Of a stretch of 64,000 nucleotides of DNA, positions 30,080 to 47,400 are shown one piece after another. The notes beneath the pieces are model-generated. The model had not been told where the DNA came from, did not search any database, and saw nothing but the letters and a program-made list of their open reading frames with translations. How positions within the stretch are numbered: position 1 is the stretch's first letter; every line of letters starts with the position of its first letter. Source of the stretch: Galdieria sulphuraria (Eukaryota; Rhodophyta; Bangiophyceae; Galdieriales; Galdieriaceae). The translations under genes and the position numbers were made by a program. Location: NCBI RefSeq assembly GCF_000341285.1, contig NW_005178471.1, positions 62,001-126,000 of the forward strand, given 5' to 3'.

Positions 30080-32333
30080 AAGAAGGATGCGTTTCAGGCG
30101 AAGGATGCCATAGACTCTTGTCTGCTTTGTTTGCCTCTTATCTCAGAATAAAAATTTTTTTTATGATACCGAGTGTACCAGCTCCCTTTTGCATATTCCT
30201 TGACAAATCTTTAGGAAGGTCTCAAGAAAGGGGAGGCGGCAATATTTTCTTTACAGCCTTATTGATTTTCTAGAAAAAAGTTTGTACTACTTTCACGGAT
30301 CTGAGTTGGGGACTTTTGAATAAATCCAACACGATAAAGACTCTCTCCATCATGTCGAGCAAAATTGAGGAAGTACTGTTTGAGTAGTTTTCAGTTGCAC
30401 AAGTTTAAAGAGACATAAAGGCTCTCTTAGGTTTAAAAAGTATATGAGGGCTAGCTGAAGAGGAAGAACGACTAAATTTGTATTAGAATGTAGGACAGGG
30501 ACTTTACAATGCGGAAAAGATGAAAATTCTTGGCGTCCTTCAAAAAGCCTCCAACAGTTTCATAGAACTCTTTGTCTTTGGGGAGCTTCTGAAATGATAT
30601 AACTGAAAGAACACCTAGGTTATTTGCATTTATATTCAAATGCCTCAGTATCTCTATAATTGCCTGAAATAGTTAAAACGTTTAAGCAGGACAGTGTAAA
30701 AGCCCGATTCGTATGCTGTTTTCAAATGTAAATAGTAATAAACACGGTCTGTCTCCTGAAAGAGACTGTTTTGGAGATATGACTCCCTATCGAACCGTTT
30801 CATAGTATACTATTCTGAAACTTTTGATAGTCGTTTTATTCCACGCCAGTTTTAATAGACTCGGTGGAACCTGGAACGATAGATTCGATTACAATTGTAA
30901 AACAAATGCATCAAACGACACTATACAAAAGGTGCGGAGAGATTGGATATTAGAATACATAAGCAAGCCTTTGCATCTGAACGTTTGCAAGGATTTCTGT
31001 TACGTCATTCGCTGGAATATATCTGCTCGAAGATGGGTGCTTTACTCTTTCTCGGCTTTATGATGAATGATGGAAATGCTTTTTGTTTTATCGTCTCTAA
31101 TGTACCGATGTCGTCTTTGGATCCTTACAACAGCATATAAAAGATGATAAATACTCTGTTTAGATAGCGAAATTCCCTATAACATTTGTCACAATACATT
31201 TACGAATAAAAGTTCCATGATATGACGATTTCATTCGACGACAACTTGCTGTAATATCTGGAATAATATGTTCGTTTATTTCTAGCACAGCAAAACGCGG
31301 GTTTGAGAAAATCGGAACAAACTGAATATTTTTCCTGGTCTTTATTAGAGATATGTAAACAGAATAGTAAAGAGAAAATGTGTCGCTGATTTAGGTTGAT
31401 AGATTTTCGACTCACAAAATGCAATATGAACGTGTGACCTCGTCACGGCCATTATTTAGAAGCATTTGCATACTTCCATTGAAAAAGTGCCTACTGATAA
31501 GTTTGACTAACAATTTATAGCTGTTTAAAATAGAAATGTTGTAAAGCTTGCAGATTGAATATCCGATAATGCTATCAAGAATTGTCTTTGTTCCAAAAAG
31601 AATGGAAATTCTACGTCTCAACGTACTGCTGTGTTTCATAGTATTGCATTTCTTTCCCTGGCTTTTTTGAGAAGGAAGCAGAGAGTAACACGAAAGACTT
31701 GGTTTGAATATCAACAATATCAAGAATCCATCAACGTTAACCAAGTTGATGAAGTTGGCATTGGAAACGAAACCATAGTATAAAGACGATTCTCGTTCCA
31801 AGAGTACCTCGGACCAATTTGCAAATGTTTGAGTGCGTAGTCATTTCTTTGCAACAAACACAATTTACTTCTTTCCACAGTCCTAAAGTTGTTCCTATTT
31901 GAACCACGGAATTCCATAGTATAGCTGTGCTGAGAACAACTCACTACTGTGCGAAAAGACAAAATACGTTTAACCTGGCTTTCGATAAGCAGCGATGGGA
32001 ACATCCACAGTTTCGTTACAGCGAGTAACGGACTGCAACTCTGCATATGTTTCTAGTTCACTTAGACTTGTTCAGAACTTTGAAAAGCAACTCAAAGATA
32101 AGAAGACCACCTTTTCAATACAAAGTCGATCTGAACTGGCACCACACAAGTTACGTTTCACTCTTCAGAAATAAACGTTTAGATATAAAAGTCAAAGGAT
32201 ATGTGGAAATATTATGATAAGCCTGTAACGAAGATGTTGAAAAAAATTGTCTTTATCCAGTGTTTGAAAAAGTGTAACGAATGAAACTCAACATGAGGTC
32301 TAAAAAAGCGTTCAATAGACTCGAGTCGTATTC
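30080..32333. other. Gene-poor region
   Basis: 2.25 kb with only short frames on both strands (e.g. 30824-31063 +, 31412-31801 - and 31720-32046 -). None recalls a family, and candidate splices did not join them. It may contain decayed coding sequence, a non-coding RNA or simply the flanks of the two neighbours. Confidence 0.45.
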
Positions 32334-33665
32334 CTAGAAGGTCTCTTCTTCCAACTCTATATCAAAGTCATCCTCAGCAGTAGCCTCTTGGTATTGTTGA
32401 TATTCTGATACTAAATCATTCATGTTACTTTCTGCTTCACTGAATTCCATTTCATCCATGCCTTCACCAGTATACCAGTGAAGGAATGCTTTGCGGCGAA
32501 ACATGGCAGTGAATTGTTCACCAACTCGTTGAAATAGTTCTTGAATAGATGTAGAGTTGCCGACAAAAGTTGCAGATTTTTTCATTCCTAAAGGCGGAAT
32601 GTCACACAACGAGCTCTTAATGTTATTAGGAATCCATTCTACAAAATAGGAAGAGTTCTTATTTTGAATATGAAACATTTGATCGTCGATGTCTTGAGTG
32701 GACATATTCCCACGGAAATAAGCTGCAGCAGTTAAATAGCGACCATGACGAGGATCACAAGCAGCCATCATATTCTTCGCATCAAACATTTGCTGCGTCA
32801 GTTCAGAAACACTGGCAGATCTATACTGTTGAGAACCTGGAGCACTCAAGGGTGCAAATCCAATCATGAAAAAGTGCAGTCGAGGAAATGGAATCAAGTT
32901 AGTAGCCAACTTTCGTAAATCTGCGTTAAGTTGTCCAGGGAACCTCAACGAACATGTTATTCCGGACATGACTGCGGATACTAGCTGATTGAGGTCGCTG
33001 TAACTGGGACTGCTAAGTTTCAGTGTTCGAAGACAAATATCATACAGTGCTTCATTGTCAATACAAAAAACTTCATCTGCATTTTCTACCAGTTGATGAA
33101 CAGATAGAGTACAGTTGTAAGGTTCCACAACGGTATCGGATACTTTTGGAGAAGGAACAACAGAATAAGTTCCCATCATTCTGTCAGGATATTCTTCACG
33201 GATTTTAGATATTAAAAGAGTTCCTAAGCCAGAGCCAGTACCTCCACCAAGAGAATGTGTAATTTGAAAACCTTGTAAGCAATCACAAGACTCTGCTTCT
33301 CGCCTTACTACATCCAGTACATTGTCAATCAACTCAGCACCTTCTGTATAGTGACCTTTAGCCCAATTGTTGCCTGCTCCATTTTGACCATATACGAAGT
33401 TATCTGGTCGAAAAAGCTTTCCATAGGTACTAGCTTTCACTGAGTCCATAGTTCCCGGTTCAAGATCCACCAAAACAGCGCGAGGAACGTATCTCGAGCC
33501 AGTTGCTTCGTTATAATAGACATTGATACGGTCTAACTGCGTAGGAGAGTTGCCTTCATATGTTCCGTTTGGATTGATGCCGTGTTCTCCAGAAATCACT
33601 TCCCAAAATTTTGAACCAATCTGATTACCGCATTGACCTGCTTGTACATGAACAATCTCTCTCAT
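32334..33665 (-). CDS. TUBB: Beta-tubulin
   Basis: Intronless, 443 aa, full length. Starts [17 protein letters not shown] (the MREI tetrapeptide used in tubulin mRNA autoregulation in animals), has the GTP-binding GGGTGSG loop, and the M-loop/C-terminal helices. It ends in an acidic tail ([12 protein letters not shown]). It forms microtubules with alpha-tubulin. It differs from the intron-rich genes around it. TTTGGCGGG at 33806-33814, about 140 bp upstream, is E2F-like. Gene-poor DNA lies on both sides. Confidence 0.98.
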
Positions 33666-36032: not shown

Positions 36033-39131
<3,099 letters not shown>

Positions 39132-40431
39132 ATTTCAATCTACACTTTCAAATTGTATGATGAATCCCAAAGTTCTATTTTCAAGCACCTTGATCATCTT
39201 TCATAAAGTATATCACTCGAACTGGAGTGAGTATTCATGCAATTTCCATTTTCTCAATCATTTCTGTATAATCAACACAAATGATACAAAAATTGAAACT
39301 AAACGGACTTACGCACACAAGGAATTTATTATATGTGCAACAACAACAACTCGAATTTCAAGAATATAATACAGAGAGCCAAATATTCAGTAAACATGTA
39401 AATATTGGAAATGGTATGACAGACAAGGATGGAGCTTAAAGTTTCTTAAAGAGCCAGTCTTCTATTCTGTTTTGAATGTCATCAAAGCATCAAATGATTG
39501 CCACAATGCAATGTTTCTGAACGAAACTACTCCATAAAGATATTTTGAAAATTTGCAACGAGTTGAACCATCATATATGAGTCTGAGGTTTAACAATACT
39601 TTTCGTCGTGCTGTTGGGTTATCATTTGACATTCATCTGGTTCAATATAGAGTCTGTTGTGGCAAAATCAACAAAGCCATCGGATGCATCCTTTCTGGAG
39701 CTTGATAAAAACTTGCACTCAAAATTCAGTAGTTTGTTGAGAGCTTACCTCTATACTTTGAATCCATGCTTCCTATATTTCCACTAGAACGGAGTTGGGA
39801 AGTTCTCTAAAGCTCTCTCTGGCACAAGAAGTGTGAAAGTGATCTTATTCACTGCTTGGACGTCTTCTTCCCCATTGGAGAATAAAAAATACGTTATAAG
39901 CACAAAGAATATATTCAATTATTCGCTACGAGCAGCAGTTTTAAGGTTTTTCCTGTTTGTTTTGGTTCCTACATCGATTGAATTCCACTGGAATTTTCCA
40001 CTGTAGCTACATCTTGCTATCCGATAGAACGTGACAATGTTTCACATCAACTTGTGGTAACTGATACTTCACCTTATATTGCCATAATGTGGTTGTTCAA
40101 GTTGCCATTTCCCCAACAGTGGATGGACTTTCTATCTGAGCTCTGTAAAATGTGGGTTTGAATACACAAACTTCGTTTGCATTCATATGGACAAACCTAT
40201 CTTCAACTCACTGTGACAACTTATCAACCTGGACAAATGCCAACCATACTCTTGTTTCTTAGTTGAGGAGCAGTTTCCATGCCCTAATAAGAAGAAACTA
40301 TATCGATGACAACACTATGATCACGTAACAAGATTGTAGCAACCGAGTTTGAAAAATAGACGCATTCATTTACACATTTTCACACAAAATGACGAGAACT
40401 TTCTAAAAACAGCTATCAACATAATGATTTG
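39132..40431. other. Gene-poor gap after MCM4
   Basis: 1.3 kb with no frame above about 70 codons apart from one at 39052-39369 that overlaps the MCM4 end. I see no gene, RNA or repeat that I can defend. Confidence 0.45.
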
Positions 40432-41269
40432 TTACATTCCTTTTATCATCTTTACCCAGTCACGGAAGATGGGAAGATCTTTGAGTTCCGGATTAGGAAT
40501 CACGGTGGTTCCGAAACTATCATTGATAACAATAGTCGCAGACAAAACCCAAGCACTTATCGAACACAACATTCCCAATATTCCACCAGGAACCGAACTA
40601 ATAGCACCAAAGAAATGCATATCATCCAGAACGAGCTCCAATTCGAGAGTCAAAAACACAATGTACAACTGAATATTGTGCCCCATCGATGCAACGAACA
40701 TATAAGTATTAAAAATGGTGTAACAAACTAGAATAAAACCTAGCGCCATGTCAAAGTCAGTTGTTGACAATAAATTCGTTCCATATTCTGCTTCTAACGT
40801 AATAAGAACGCCAAAGGCTAGCCAAAAGGCACCGTAGCTCGAAAATGCAACTCCACCAAAAGTATTTTGTTTAATGAAAGTCATGATGCCAGCAATCAGC
40901 TGTGCCGAACCTCCATACATAAAGCCTAGTGCAATAATACTATTTGTCAAGCCACTAGGTAACAACTTGGCATTGATACAACTCAGCATAAAGTCTGTTG
41001 CCGCAAAACCTGCCAACCCTAAGGCCTCTGGATGTCCCAAACTCACAACTTGCTTAGTTGGAGCTATTTTTTACGTTACTTAAAGTCAACTACAGCAAAT
41101 TCAAACATATACCTTGATATTCAGCAGCTACACCTCCCATATTTCCATAAGAATAGCGCCTTACAAACGAATTGGGAGGAAGATCTTTCAAACCAAAGTT
41201 TTCTTCCTCTTCAGACCTATTGGCAGTTTGATTATTCATCTCAGCTACTGCTTGTTCAGGCCTAGCCAT
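40432..41269 (-). CDS. GPR1/FUN34/YaaH (acetate/succinate) transporter, copy A
   Basis: Two exons (41269-41113, 41063-40432), phase 1, 262 aa. A polar N-terminus with the conserved LKDLPPNSFVRRYSYGNMG leads into six TM helices. The family motif near helix 1 (NPAPLGL in fungi/bacteria) reads HPEALGLAGFAATDF. FMYGGSAQLIAG is the second hallmark, and YGAFWLAFG the third. Members carry acetate or succinate across the plasma membrane, often as a proton symport or channel. Galdieria grows on many carbon sources. Exon 2 is nearly identical to copy B at 42217-43071 except for one 69-bp patch. Confidence 0.9.
40438..41052 (-). repeat. Homogenised segment shared with 42226-42840, interrupted by a divergent island
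   Basis: 40438-40620 equals 42226-42408 (183 nt, no difference). 40690-41052 equals 42478-42840 (363 nt, no difference). Between them 40621-40689 and 42409-42477 differ at 21 of 69 positions with no length change. Confidence 0.9.
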
Positions 41270-41563
41270 TTCCAAATCAATAACCCTGCCTTCCACAGTA
41301 AACCAGGAGTACTTCTAAGTGGACTTGACGAACAGCTGTTTCGTCTCATTTGCTTGCTCGTCAGAAGCAGATGACCAATGGACAAAATGGATTGACCGGA
41401 CAGCTCTCCCGTGCTGTTTGAGAATCAACTCGAATTTCATTTACCTTGAATAAAATTTAGGGTTGTCTTTATGGTGTGTATGGAAACATAACAGCTCTTA
41501 AGTTGCAACCAGTAAGTTACTTCACATATCACAAAAGAGAAAGAATGAAACAAAACCTGCTCG

Positions 41564-41962
41564 ATGGGAACGAAATTCGATTGTCCATTCAAGATGATTG
41601 GGATTGGCTTCACTTTCTCACAACAGGCTGTAACTTTAAGACGCCCTCTTTGGAAACAGAACTTTCGGCAACAAGAAACAAATAAAGCATTGTTGAGAGA
41701 ACAACCTTGTAGACATTTTTTGAAAAATAGAGCAACCTATTATGTTTGTAAGCAACAGTCTTCCAAGGATGAGACGAGACCTGGGAAAGGACAGGAAGAG
41801 GCAACTCAAGCAGAAAGTAAGAGTTCCAAAATGCCAAGAACAACTCGGATTGTGGGCGATATATTTTTCTTCACTATTACTATGGCACTTTTTGTGATGA
41901 CGCTTGTAGCCACTCTGTATCGTTTTTATCTCCCTCAGGGCTTATCCCCACCTTTTTCTTAA
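41564..41962 (+). CDS. Hypothetical single-TM protein with transit-peptide-like leader
   Basis: 132 aa from an ATG to TAA. Residues 1-~85 are basic, rich in Gln/Ser/Arg, with few acids at first, like an organelle transit peptide. A polar linker (KDETRPGKGQEEATQAESK) is followed by one TM helix (IVGDIFFFTITMALFVMTLVATLYRFYLP) and a short tail GLSPPFS. No family is recognised. A small plastid or mitochondrial membrane subunit is my guess. An earlier Met at 41545 is in another frame. It lies between the two transporter paralogs on the opposite strand. Confidence 0.5.
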   Translation: MGTKFDCPFKMIGIGFTFSQQAVTLRRPLWKQNFRQQETNKALLREQPCRHFLKNRATYYVCKQQSSKDETRPGKGQEEATQAESKSSKMPRTTRIVGDIFFFTITMALFVMTLVATLYRFYLPQGLSPPFS

Positions 41963-42216
41963 GTGAAAGTACTGTTAAGAAGGAAGAGTTCTGTGTCGAA
42001 AGGTTTCTTAACGTGTAAGGAAGAAACGAAATATGTTTTAGGCCTTGCCGCATTGCAAATAAATACGGACCAAAGTAGACACGTTCGTATTTATAAGAAA
42101 CACGAAATACTGTCTCATATCAACAGTTTTCTAAATAAGAAGCAAACACACAAAACACTCCATAAAAACTGCACAAGACAAACAGAGTCTCTATATTCCA
42201 CAACCACCACTCACTA

Positions 42217-43071
42217 TTACTTCTCTCCTTTTATCATCTTTACCCAGTCACGGAAGATGGGAAGATCTTTGAGTTCCGGATTAGGAATCACGGTGGTTCC
42301 GAAACTATCATTGATAACAATAGTCGCAGACAAAACCCAAGCACTTATCGAACACAACATTCCCAATATTCCACCAGGAACCGAACTAATAGCACCAAAG
42401 AAATGCATGTCTACAAGAACAAGTTGCATTTCTAACGTCAAGAATATAATATAAAGCTGTATATTATGCGCCATCGTTGCAACGAACATATAAGTATTAA
42501 AAATGGTGTAACAAACTAGAATAAAACCTAGCGCCATGTCAAAGTCAGTTGTTGACAATAAATTCGTTCCATATTCTGCTTCTAACGTAATAAGAACGCC
42601 AAAGGCTAGCCAAAAGGCACCGTAGCTCGAAAATGCAACTCCACCAAAAGTATTTTGTTTAATGAAAGTCATGATGCCAGCAATCAGCTGTGCCGAACCT
42701 CCATACATAAAGCCTAGTGCAATAATACTATTTGTCAAGCCACTAGGTAACAACTTGGCATTGATACAACTCAGCATAAAGTCTGTTGCCGCAAAACCTG
42801 CCAACCCTAAGGCCTCTGGATGTCCCAAACTCACAACTTGTTTGGTAGGAGCTAAAGAACCAAGTCATTTAATGTTCATAATAACTCCCTTTTTATAAAA
42901 CTCACGGTGGTATTCCTTTGACATGCCGCCCATATTTCCATACGAATAGCGCCTAACGAAGGAATTGGGTGGAAGGTCCTTCAAACCCAACTCTTCGTCT
43001 ACAGAGTCATTATTTCTTGTATGTCGCGTTGCCTGTGCAGCTTGTTCTTCTTCAGTCATCGTAGAAACCAT
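42217..43071 (-). CDS. GPR1/FUN34/YaaH (acetate/succinate) transporter, copy B
   Basis: Two exons (43071-42906, 42851-42217), phase 1, 266 aa. Same architecture as copy A. The N-terminal cytosolic part (about 55 residues) is clearly diverged before the shared DLPPNSFVRRYSYGNMGG, and the last residues differ (IKGEK instead of IKGM). Within the membrane part the only differing patch is ATMAHNIQLYIIFLTLEMQL versus ASMGHNIQLYIVFLTLELEL in A, with a Val/Asp change just after. The intron sits at the same place and phase. Expression is probably separate, as its 5' flank is different. Confidence 0.9.
42226..42840 (-). repeat. Second copy of the homogenised segment
   Basis: Partner of 40438-41052. 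The 42409-42477 patch is the divergent island. Confidence 0.9.
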
Positions 43072-43503
43072 GTCCGTAGAAACGTTTGTGTCGCGTCTTC
43101 CAACAATACAAAAACAATTTAGTGCTTCAATCTCAAATTAATGCACTTTTGGAGATGGTGTAGAAATTACCCAGTATAAGACAGCTGTTCCTTGGGTCCG
43201 TTATGTATGACTTTACCACTAAATTCGTTCATTGTTTAACAATTATCACTCTATTTTTTGAAAAGTGTCTAGCATGGCAAGAGAAAGTCATACGTATTTC
43301 CATGTTTCAAAAACACAAGGAAGAAGAGTCCGATGGATCCATCTTCACCGCACATGGCGAACAACACGTGATGGCCGCCCTTAAGGACTGATCCCATGGA
43401 CAAGGAGAGAAATTGGGGAATTCTAGTTTTTGGGAAGCTGAAGAAACCCTGTGAGCTTTGTTGATTGTTGTACTCGCGTTTGGTTGCCTTCAACTTGGTG
43501 ACA
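43072..43503. other. Divergent promoter region of copy B and the four-TM gene
   Basis: About 430 bp. It holds frames up to 94 codons on either strand, none convincing. It should contain both promoters. Confidence 0.45.
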
Positions 43504-44437: not shown

Positions 44438-47400
44438 TCAATTCGAAGTACCCCAGAACCGTCTTGCACCACCTAAGACGTTTGCTGCACTCTCTAACAC
44501 ATCTTTCCTTCTATCTTCCCTCATTTCTTTGCGTTCAATGACCTTAAGGACTCCATGAATAAAAGTTGTATAAAACTCATTATATGCATACCTGTAAGAC
44601 TTCATAATCCTTGGGTGCATACTGTCGCATTACAAAACTATATAAAACTCTTCAGAACAAATAGTTCAGATAAACGAATAGTAAATCTTACCGAATGACA
44701 TAGTCAGGTAGCATAGCAAGTGAGACGGTAGCCAAAAGACTAAGCCAATAAGGAGGAGATTGAAATGCCCAACGTACCACACCATACATATTCGCCTGTT
44801 GAATGAGGTCGTTGGGTCTATTTTCAAAACGTCAACTGTGGAGCAATATTGAAATCAGCGACAACTTACTGAATATAACTATAAGCAATCATAAGAACAA
44901 AAAAGAAAACGACTGATAACCAAATGGCAACATGTGATATCCACACCCAATAGTGAGTATACAAACAGGCTTCTAATAAAATGATAATCACAACGTTGGT
45001 GAAGATCATCGTGCTCATGTCCCATAAACCTCCCACCTTTGAAAAAATAAATAAACGTTTATGACAAGAAGAATCTTATACTTACTTGGCCAATTGCTCT
45101 CTCTACTCCATTCGAAGAATGATATGCTCCATACGCACAAAAGAAACAAATCAAACTTTGGTAAATTGCCAAAGCACTCCAATACAACATTTTCTTTCCA
45201 GAAAAATATCCAGAATCTCTAAGCCCCTGATAAGCAGAGGGATGTCTCATGATTGTGGTTTCCGTAATGTCTTTTTCAAATGTTCCAAGTGCAAGTGGCG
45301 GCAACGAAGTTATAAACAGATTGAAAAATTGCAAAATCCACGAATCAATAATAGTTTGGCCTGAGAATTTGTTGAAAAAAGCAAACCATGCCTGAACCAA
45401 CACCAACATCATGTTCTTATACAATGAATAAAATATCAACTTGACAGCTCGAATGAAATTGTATCTTCCATGGACTCCTAAAAGCCGACTAAGAAGATAG
45501 AATTGCCCAATCGCATAGTCAGAAGCCATAACGGCTTGCATTCCTTCGTGTCCTTGGATACCAATTCCCACATCTGCTTCCTGAATCATGGAAACATCAT
45601 TCGCTCCATCGCCTACTGCACATGTAACCCTTCCTTGGGTTTTCACTAAACGTACAATTACTGCCTTTTGCAATGGTGTCGCTCTACAGCATATTACTGA
45701 AACACATTGTTCGGCAACAGTCAAAAATGTTTCTGGAATGTTCTTTAAAGCTAACGTTAAGGAAGTTCCGTCGATGACAAGAGTTGGTCCTCTTAATCTT
45801 TTAGAGGTGTCAGAAGTGGTATGAATTGAAGAGAAACCATTCCTTCGTCTTTTCCATTTTCCCTTTGAATGATTAAATTGTCGTGTTCCGGCAAGCGGAG
45901 TTGGTTCATCTCCTGATTCATTAGCCTCCTCATCTGTTGTGGTTGTCAGACCACTCCCACTTGAAAACAGCAAATCACTCTTCAAAGCCATTTCCAACTG
46001 TTGCATAACCTGCTCTGAAGTGTTTCCCTCTATACTAATCATCTTGTGTGGATCTACAACAATTGACGAACTAACTCCAATGGCCACAGCAGTTTCTCGC
46101 AAGTCACCAGTAACCATCCAAATGGTAATACCTGCCTGTTGAAGGAACGAAACAGTCTCTTGAACTTTGTACTGCAAACGATCTTCCACAGCAGAAGCAC
46201 CCAACAGTGTTAAGTCATGTTCTACAAGCTCCCATGCCTGGGCAATCTTCAAGTCCCTGCTACTATCCATCGATCCCTGCGCACTTTCCAACTCCGAATG
46301 AAAATTCTCATATTCTGTTTCCGAAAGGAAGCGAGCTCCAAACACCAAAACACGAAGACCTTCATCAGCAAACGACTGAACATGTTTCTTTGTGACAGAA
46401 ATCAGGTCCCGTTGGTCAAAAGCAACACTAGTGGCTATCTCTCCTCGATCAATGCTAAGTGAAACGTCTCTCATTTTATCAAACATTACAGATTCCGCTC
46501 CCTTTGAATAAAGAACTATCTTTCCTTCCGGCGTGCGTACAATTAACGACATACTCCTACGCGAAGATTCAAACTCAGCAATATCCAAGACTTGAAATAT
46601 TTCTTCTGTTTTTTCATGTTCATTCAAAATGTGCAGACGTTGTCCTTGTCTCTTTATCAAGCGAAAACCATAATCACGAGCTGCCCTCACAAGAGCCACT
46701 TCATCAGGAGATTGAGCTGCATAATCGATTTTCTCGATATCATCAGTCAATTCACTTGTTTCACTAGGTTTCGAAGACTTGTCTGCTTTGTCCGCTTTTG
46801 TCTTTTTGAAAAATCGTAGCGCATTTCGTTTCAAGTTCTTCAGGTGCCAAGAATGCTTCTTCTCTTCACCACTTTCAAATTGGTTCGGAACATCAGGCGA
46901 GACTGTGTGACATACGCACATTGCTCTAAGAAATTCTAACTTGAAAGGAAAATCCGTATCCACAATGGGTGAAGTATGCTCTATGGGTGTCTCCAAAGTT
47001 CGGCCTTGGTTTGAACTTCCATCGTTCTAAAAGGAATCGTGAGTTAAATAATATGCGAGAAAATTGTGTTTTCTTACTGTAACTATATCGGTGCCTCGAT
47101 AAATCCCAGAGTCTACTGTTTGTTTCTCGGTGAAGGCCAACTCTCCAAGATGATCACCCAAGCTGCTATGCTTTGTATAAAAGAGTTCACCACCAACACT
47201 ACATTTCGAAAACTCCATTATATTTTCAGTCAAAGTGCCCGTCTTATCCGAGAACAAATGTTGTACAATACCAAGTTCATCATTAATAGCACTGGTTCTT
47301 GCCAACATTGGCTTTCGTTGCGGAGGAGACACAGAATTATCATAGCATGTCAGTTCATGATCCCATTCCATGAAGCACTTTTGCCAAAAGCGGGTCAACT

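Follow-up and report, generated by a model that had tools for sequence, protein, structure and literature searches.

A divergent island at TM4-TM5 within an apparently homogenised exon of tandem putative carboxylate transporter genes in Galdieria sulphuraria

The 64,000-nucleotide stretch of Galdieria sulphuraria DNA analysed here (hereafter, the window) carries two tandem transporter-like genes, termed copies A and B, that are identical over nearly all of their second exon and sharply different over a short block inside it. We asked how a block of such divergence came to lie within perfect identity, and whether it matters to the encoded proteins. Copy A, on the minus strand at 40432..41269, is predicted to encode 262 aa, with exon 1 at 41113-41269, an intron at 41064-41112 and exon 2 at 40432-41063 including the stop codon; its splice sites were picked by eye from the sequence, and the structure is a predicted gene model. 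Copy B, on the same strand at 42217..43071, is likewise a two-exon model, of 266 aa (exon 42906-43071, intron 42852-42905 and exon 2 at 42217-42851 including the stop codon). An alternative three-exon model of copy B starts from an ATG at 43232 and gives 295 aa, and a possible additional 5' exon of this copy is predicted at 43097-43232 (minus strand); a search upstream of A for a counterpart of that exon gave nothing above shuffles.

Between A and B, on the opposite strand, lies an open frame of 137 codons (41549-41962, plus strand) with no Pfam match; if this frame is a gene, another gene sits inside the tandem pair. The neighbours are an MCM helicase gene at 36975-38555 on the plus strand (PF17207, PF00493) and a phospholipid-translocating P-type ATPase gene at 45059-47026 on the minus strand (PF16212), and an inverted repeat, with arms of about 53 nt that share 83% identity, is found at 31675-31725 and 32386-32438.

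Both spliced models match PF01184 well above its gathering cut-off of 25 bits (copy A, E = 1.6e-35, 123 bits; copy B, E = 1e-36, 126.9 bits), and sequence matches link both to SatP structures (5YS3/5YS8 and 5ZUG). These matches identify A and B as members of the AceTr (Gpr1/Fun34/YaaH) family and putative carboxylate transporters. An AlphaFold2 model covering exon 2 of A, made with 28 aligned sequences (pLDDT 88.8), contains six long helices, and when it was used in a structure search with Foldseek, all six matches with E <= 0.001 were SatP chains (TM-score 0.79 to 5YS3). The NPAPLGL signature at TM1 named for the AceTr family in passages of PMC13316224 is represented by HPEALGL in both copies; when A and B were aligned with 26 prokaryotic relatives, the consensus at this place was PGPLGL, and the motif is loose. 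From a search of genome contigs, 80 of 88 confirmed loci were kept, all bacterial or archaeal and at 29-50% identity, and no relative was found in viral contigs. These 80 prokaryotic relatives are too distant to order silent changes.

When the two minus-strand copies are aligned in register at an offset of 1788, a mosaic is seen. Identical tract 1 (183 nt; A 40438-40620, B 42226-42408) and identical tract 2 (363 nt; A 40690-41052, B 42478-42840) show 0 differences in 546 nt, and the divergent island between them (A 40621-40689, B 42409-42477) differs at 21 of 69 nt. A sequence-only reading of the locus had described exactly this arrangement, and alignment at the offset reproduced its counts to the nucleotide. 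It had also placed one end of the identity 11 nt inside exon 2, in agreement with the start of exon 2 of A at 41063 and the end of tract 2 at 41052, and the other end two codons before the stop codon, which is correct for B (GAG AAG stop) but not for A, where one codon intervenes (ATG stop). No further copy was found within the window by blastn.

The island consists of 23 whole codons in frame (178-200 in A, 181-203 in B). Its differences fall on first, second and third codon positions in the numbers 6/2/13 and change six residues (S178T, G180A, V188I, L194M, E195Q and D199V, from A to B in A numbering), with 12 of the 21 lying in codons whose residue is unchanged; dN is 0.19, and dS is saturated to the point of not being computable. 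Successive thirds of the island hold 5, 8 and 8 differences, that is, divergence is block-like and continues right up to both edges. When the 81 differences between the copies were shuffled over the 783 aligned coding columns, a 363-nt identical run arose in 0 of 20,000 shuffles, and the longest identical run was 113, such that 183 was never reached. Shuffling the 26 exon-2 differences over 630 columns also gave a 363-nt run in 0 of 20,000.

The relative ages of these parts were assessed from silent differences, counted over codons that specify the same residue in A and B and are able to differ silently. In the two tracts, 0 of 171 such codons differ, compared with 16 of 32 in exon 1 together with the first four exon-2 codons, a highly significant contrast (p = 3e-15). 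The island, at 10 of 16 codons, is as diverged as exon 1 (p = 0.54, Fisher's test). From 0 differences in 546 nt, divergence of the tracts since the last exchange is at most 0.55% at 95%. Outside exons, the copies cannot be aligned: the intron alignment is no better than shuffles (173 of 200 shuffles scored at least as high as observed), and the 5' flank (171 of 200) and the 3' flank (47 of 200) are also at shuffle level. The ends of the tracts sit near the limits of alignable sequence. Because of the silent contrast and the unalignable intron and flanks, there is strong support from the sequence for A and B being old paralogs whose exon 2, except the island and its very ends, was homogenised recently.

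Two simpler origins for the identity were rejected. A recent whole-gene duplication is ruled out by the unrelated intron and flanks. Selection at the protein level is ruled out as its cause since silent codons are identical too, which upholds the earlier argument that third positions are also identical and that protein selection is insufficient.

The mosaic is real and is best read as a clean case of a known process, gene conversion: the tracts are silent-identical between paralogs that have otherwise diverged, and the flanks outside the tracts have not been homogenised. The reading that we judge probable is that interlocus gene conversion acted across exon 2 and that the island is original divergence that was not overwritten. 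A and B would be old neighbouring paralogs in the AceTr/SatP (Gpr1/Fun34/YaaH) family of carboxylate transporters, and one would recently have overwritten the other across nearly all of exon 2, which is the only long stretch where A and B still align. The island would have escaped because it was skipped, either between two tracts or within a single patchy one; alternatively, chromosomes with an overwritten island may have been lost by selection. It may serve to keep the pore properties of A and B apart, as it carries most of TM5 and the leucine of the FLY constriction, discussed below. That silent divergence of the island matches that of exon 1 favours retained old divergence. What counts against the explanation is that, had exon 2 been as divergent as the island, it would be unusual for a conversion tract to start between sequences so unlike. 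The earlier proposal of conversion that skipped the island is upheld in its first half, the recent homogenisation of exon 2 being strongly supported; for its second half, the island as a leftover fits, with later re-import as a rival.

To set out this rival, the whole of exon 2 would have been homogenised and the 69-nt block then restored to one copy, most likely A, in a brief further exchange with another paralog or with an allele that had escaped conversion. We consider this unlikely, in part because one more event is required, though several features of the island are in its favour. The block edges are sharp, and the third-position GC content (GC3) of the A island (14/23) is unusual relative to both exon 1 of A (14/52, p = 0.009) and the tracts (68/183, p = 0.04), in two of six uncorrected comparisons of which the remaining four gave p 0.07 to 1.0. 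The corresponding comparisons for the B island gave p = 0.63 and 1.0, without such a contrast, and GC3 compared directly between the islands showed no significant difference (p = 0.24). As small, uncorrected tests, these comparisons give a weak hint of foreign origin for the A island. Copy A also has Asp at a position occupied by Leu in 79 of 80 relatives, but three of its six differing residues (S178, V188 and L194) are the commoner ones among the 80 relatives. Donors may exist, as 10 putative YaaH-family acetate transporters are listed for G. sulphuraria in parts of a transcriptome paper (PMC9520601), and a passage of PMC13353863 refers to meiotic recombination in Galdieria; within the window, however, tblastn found no donor.

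One candidate source lies just beyond A. When the window was searched in translation, this region gave a match at E = 0.044 (26.6 bits, a score that the best of 60 shuffled queries also reached), too weak to count by itself, but inspection of 39000-40430 revealed collinear AceTr pieces in several frames, with stops. The exon-2-like part of this third copy, termed psi-C, occupies 39271-39691 on the minus strand, and its nucleotide alignment scores 175 with A and 188 with B, against maxima of 86 and 93 in 100 shuffles each (z = 13.4 and 14.2). A possible exon-1-like remnant at about 39756-39882 (minus strand) aligns weakly and is barely above shuffles (z = 0.8 with A and 2.9 with B). On these alignments, we identify psi-C as a decayed third tandem AceTr paralog, one that the sequence-only reading had missed. 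Its identity to tract 2 (190/318) and tract 1 (65/146) rules it out as a recently converted copy, and its identity to the A island (32/53) and the B island (37/53) rules it out as the donor of the island.

The affinities of psi-C at the sites that separate A from B are mixed. In a three-way MAFFT alignment, 16 of the 21 island-difference sites are scorable, and psi-C is B-like at nine, A-like at four and like neither at three. This count is in line with a re-imported A island, which may be the odder of the two, but four A-like sites out of 13 is not significant (one-sided p = 0.13). Pairwise scores for the island favoured B in four of five schemes and tied in one. Over 23 exon-1 sites, the three-way alignment gave 13 for A, three for B and seven for neither, in a remnant barely distinguishable from shuffles, and the same five pairwise schemes pointed the opposite way, to B in 5 of 5. 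Thirteen intron sites were divided into four for A, seven for B and two for neither.

We then considered the island in the protein. In the model of A, TM4 spans residues 153-178 and TM5 residues 183-203, which places the island on the end of TM4, the turn and most of TM5; the six changes had been assigned to a TM helix and loop from the sequence, and the model agrees. The FLY constriction of SatP is formed by F17, Y72 and L131, according to passages of PMC8779868, and the equivalents counted on the alignment with SatP are F72, Y129 and L192 in A, with the same residues in B. L192, which is itself identical in A and B, is included in the modelled island, and the changes at 188, 195 and 199 sit at -4, +3 and +7 from it and, from helix periodicity, probably share its helix face. 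At position 195, 63 of 80 relatives have Thr, in place of which A has Glu and B has Gln; at position 199, 79 of 80 have Leu and one has a gap, in place of which A has Asp and B has Val. Charged residues between 185 and 199 are absent from 67 relatives and number one in the other 13, compared with three in A and one in B. Island closeness to the 80 relatives by BLOSUM62 was greater for B in 58 cases, tied in 22 and greater for A in 0. The closeness of B stems from positions 199 and 180, while A is more usual at 178, 188 and 194, and 195 ties.

Of 23-codon segments placed at random in exon 2, 35% include a FLY residue, so the overlap of the island with this constriction is, taken alone, no evidence of selection. 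Lactate and succinate transport by yeast Ato1 is altered when the corresponding leucine is changed, as described in parts of PMC8779868 and PMC13316224, and SatP L131A is described in a passage of PMC9409672 as having high succinate transport; a literature search found no report of SatP L131V with lactate. Given the modelled position of the island on TM5 with the FLY leucine, and the effects of leucine mutants in Ato1 and SatP, a functional role of the island is plausible. The suggestion that it may hold the functional difference between the copies thus gains structural support, but the island is not the sole protein difference between them: of the 51 residues of exon 1 that can be aligned, 20 differ. 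A more specific proposal, which we put forward tentatively and hold to be unlikely, is that the island acts as a selectivity cassette. Here, TM5 with its FLY leucine and charge changes (Glu/Gln and Asp/Val), probably on one face, would make the two transporters differ in substrate or in their response to pH. Selection would have kept or restored this helix, with the remainder of the pore-forming exon being renewed by conversion.

A related explanation, which we find decidedly doubtful, is long-running concerted evolution, in which conversion would keep exon 2 alike and selection would purge conversions of TM5, as at opsin exon 5. The divergence peak does fall on a structural module containing the FLY leucine, and no conversion between very unlike genes need be initiated; theory and examples are discussed in passages of PMC3924837 and PMC3728101. 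Against it, the 12 of 21 differences in codons with unchanged residue, with a dN of 0.19 beside saturated dS, indicate constraint rather than adaptive change. Where a peak is kept by selection, divergence is expected to fall off gradually from the selected site, and we might therefore expect intermediate divergence near the edges of the island. Instead, in this one gene pair, the edges are abrupt and divergence jumps from zero to full. Least credible, and very improbable, is an assembly or consensus artefact, with A and B both built from the reads of a single copy or with their islands interchanged. In its favour, both tracts exceed the length of common short reads, which by themselves could not link an island to its exon 1. 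Against it, A and B are each assembled, with introns and flanks unrelated to those of the other, making the collapsed assembly that had been raised as a caveat unlikely; a 30% divergent block inside perfect identity would hardly survive consensus error, and the window contains no N.

Returning to conversion across exon 2 that left the island in place, among the literature matches listed there was no report, in the parts of those sources seen, of conversion between Galdieria acetate transporters, and the term "gene conversion" has 0 occurrences in PMC9812998. The kind of pattern is already known, from the red/green opsins and from Tigriopus GOT1; what is new here is the place of the island on the TM4 end and TM5 with the FLY leucine, the decayed psi-C and the Asp of copy A. 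Like SatP of E. coli and C. koseri (5ZUG, 5YS3) and yeast Ato1, the two copies combine PF01184, the SatP fold (as modelled for exon 2 of A) and the FLY residues. Unlike in these relatives, the residue that follows the FLY leucine is Glu in both copies and the signature departs from NPAPLGL, and A carries a further Glu plus an Asp in TM5.

In Tigriopus californicus, GOT1p1 and GOT1p2 have islands of divergence amid coding sequence homogenised by conversion, and the functional difference is unproven there as well, according to passages of PMC3728101; several populations were sequenced in that case, whereas A and B come from one assembly. The human red and green opsin genes, OPN1LW and OPN1MW, show a peak of divergence at exon 5 amid conversion, with the theory discussed in parts of PMC3924837. 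As in A and B, the opsin paralogs encode membrane proteins and have been homogenised by conversion except at a short peak of divergence; the local peak in A and B is 21 of 69 nt within 0 of 546. The opsin peak, however, holds known functional sites, whereas in A and B a function of the island is a hypothesis, its silent sites are saturated and its edges are abrupt. A and B offer a compact natural helix swap: their membrane domains are the same apart from the helix bearing the known selectivity leucine of the family, and placing both islands in one backbone would directly test whether divergence that escaped conversion marks function.
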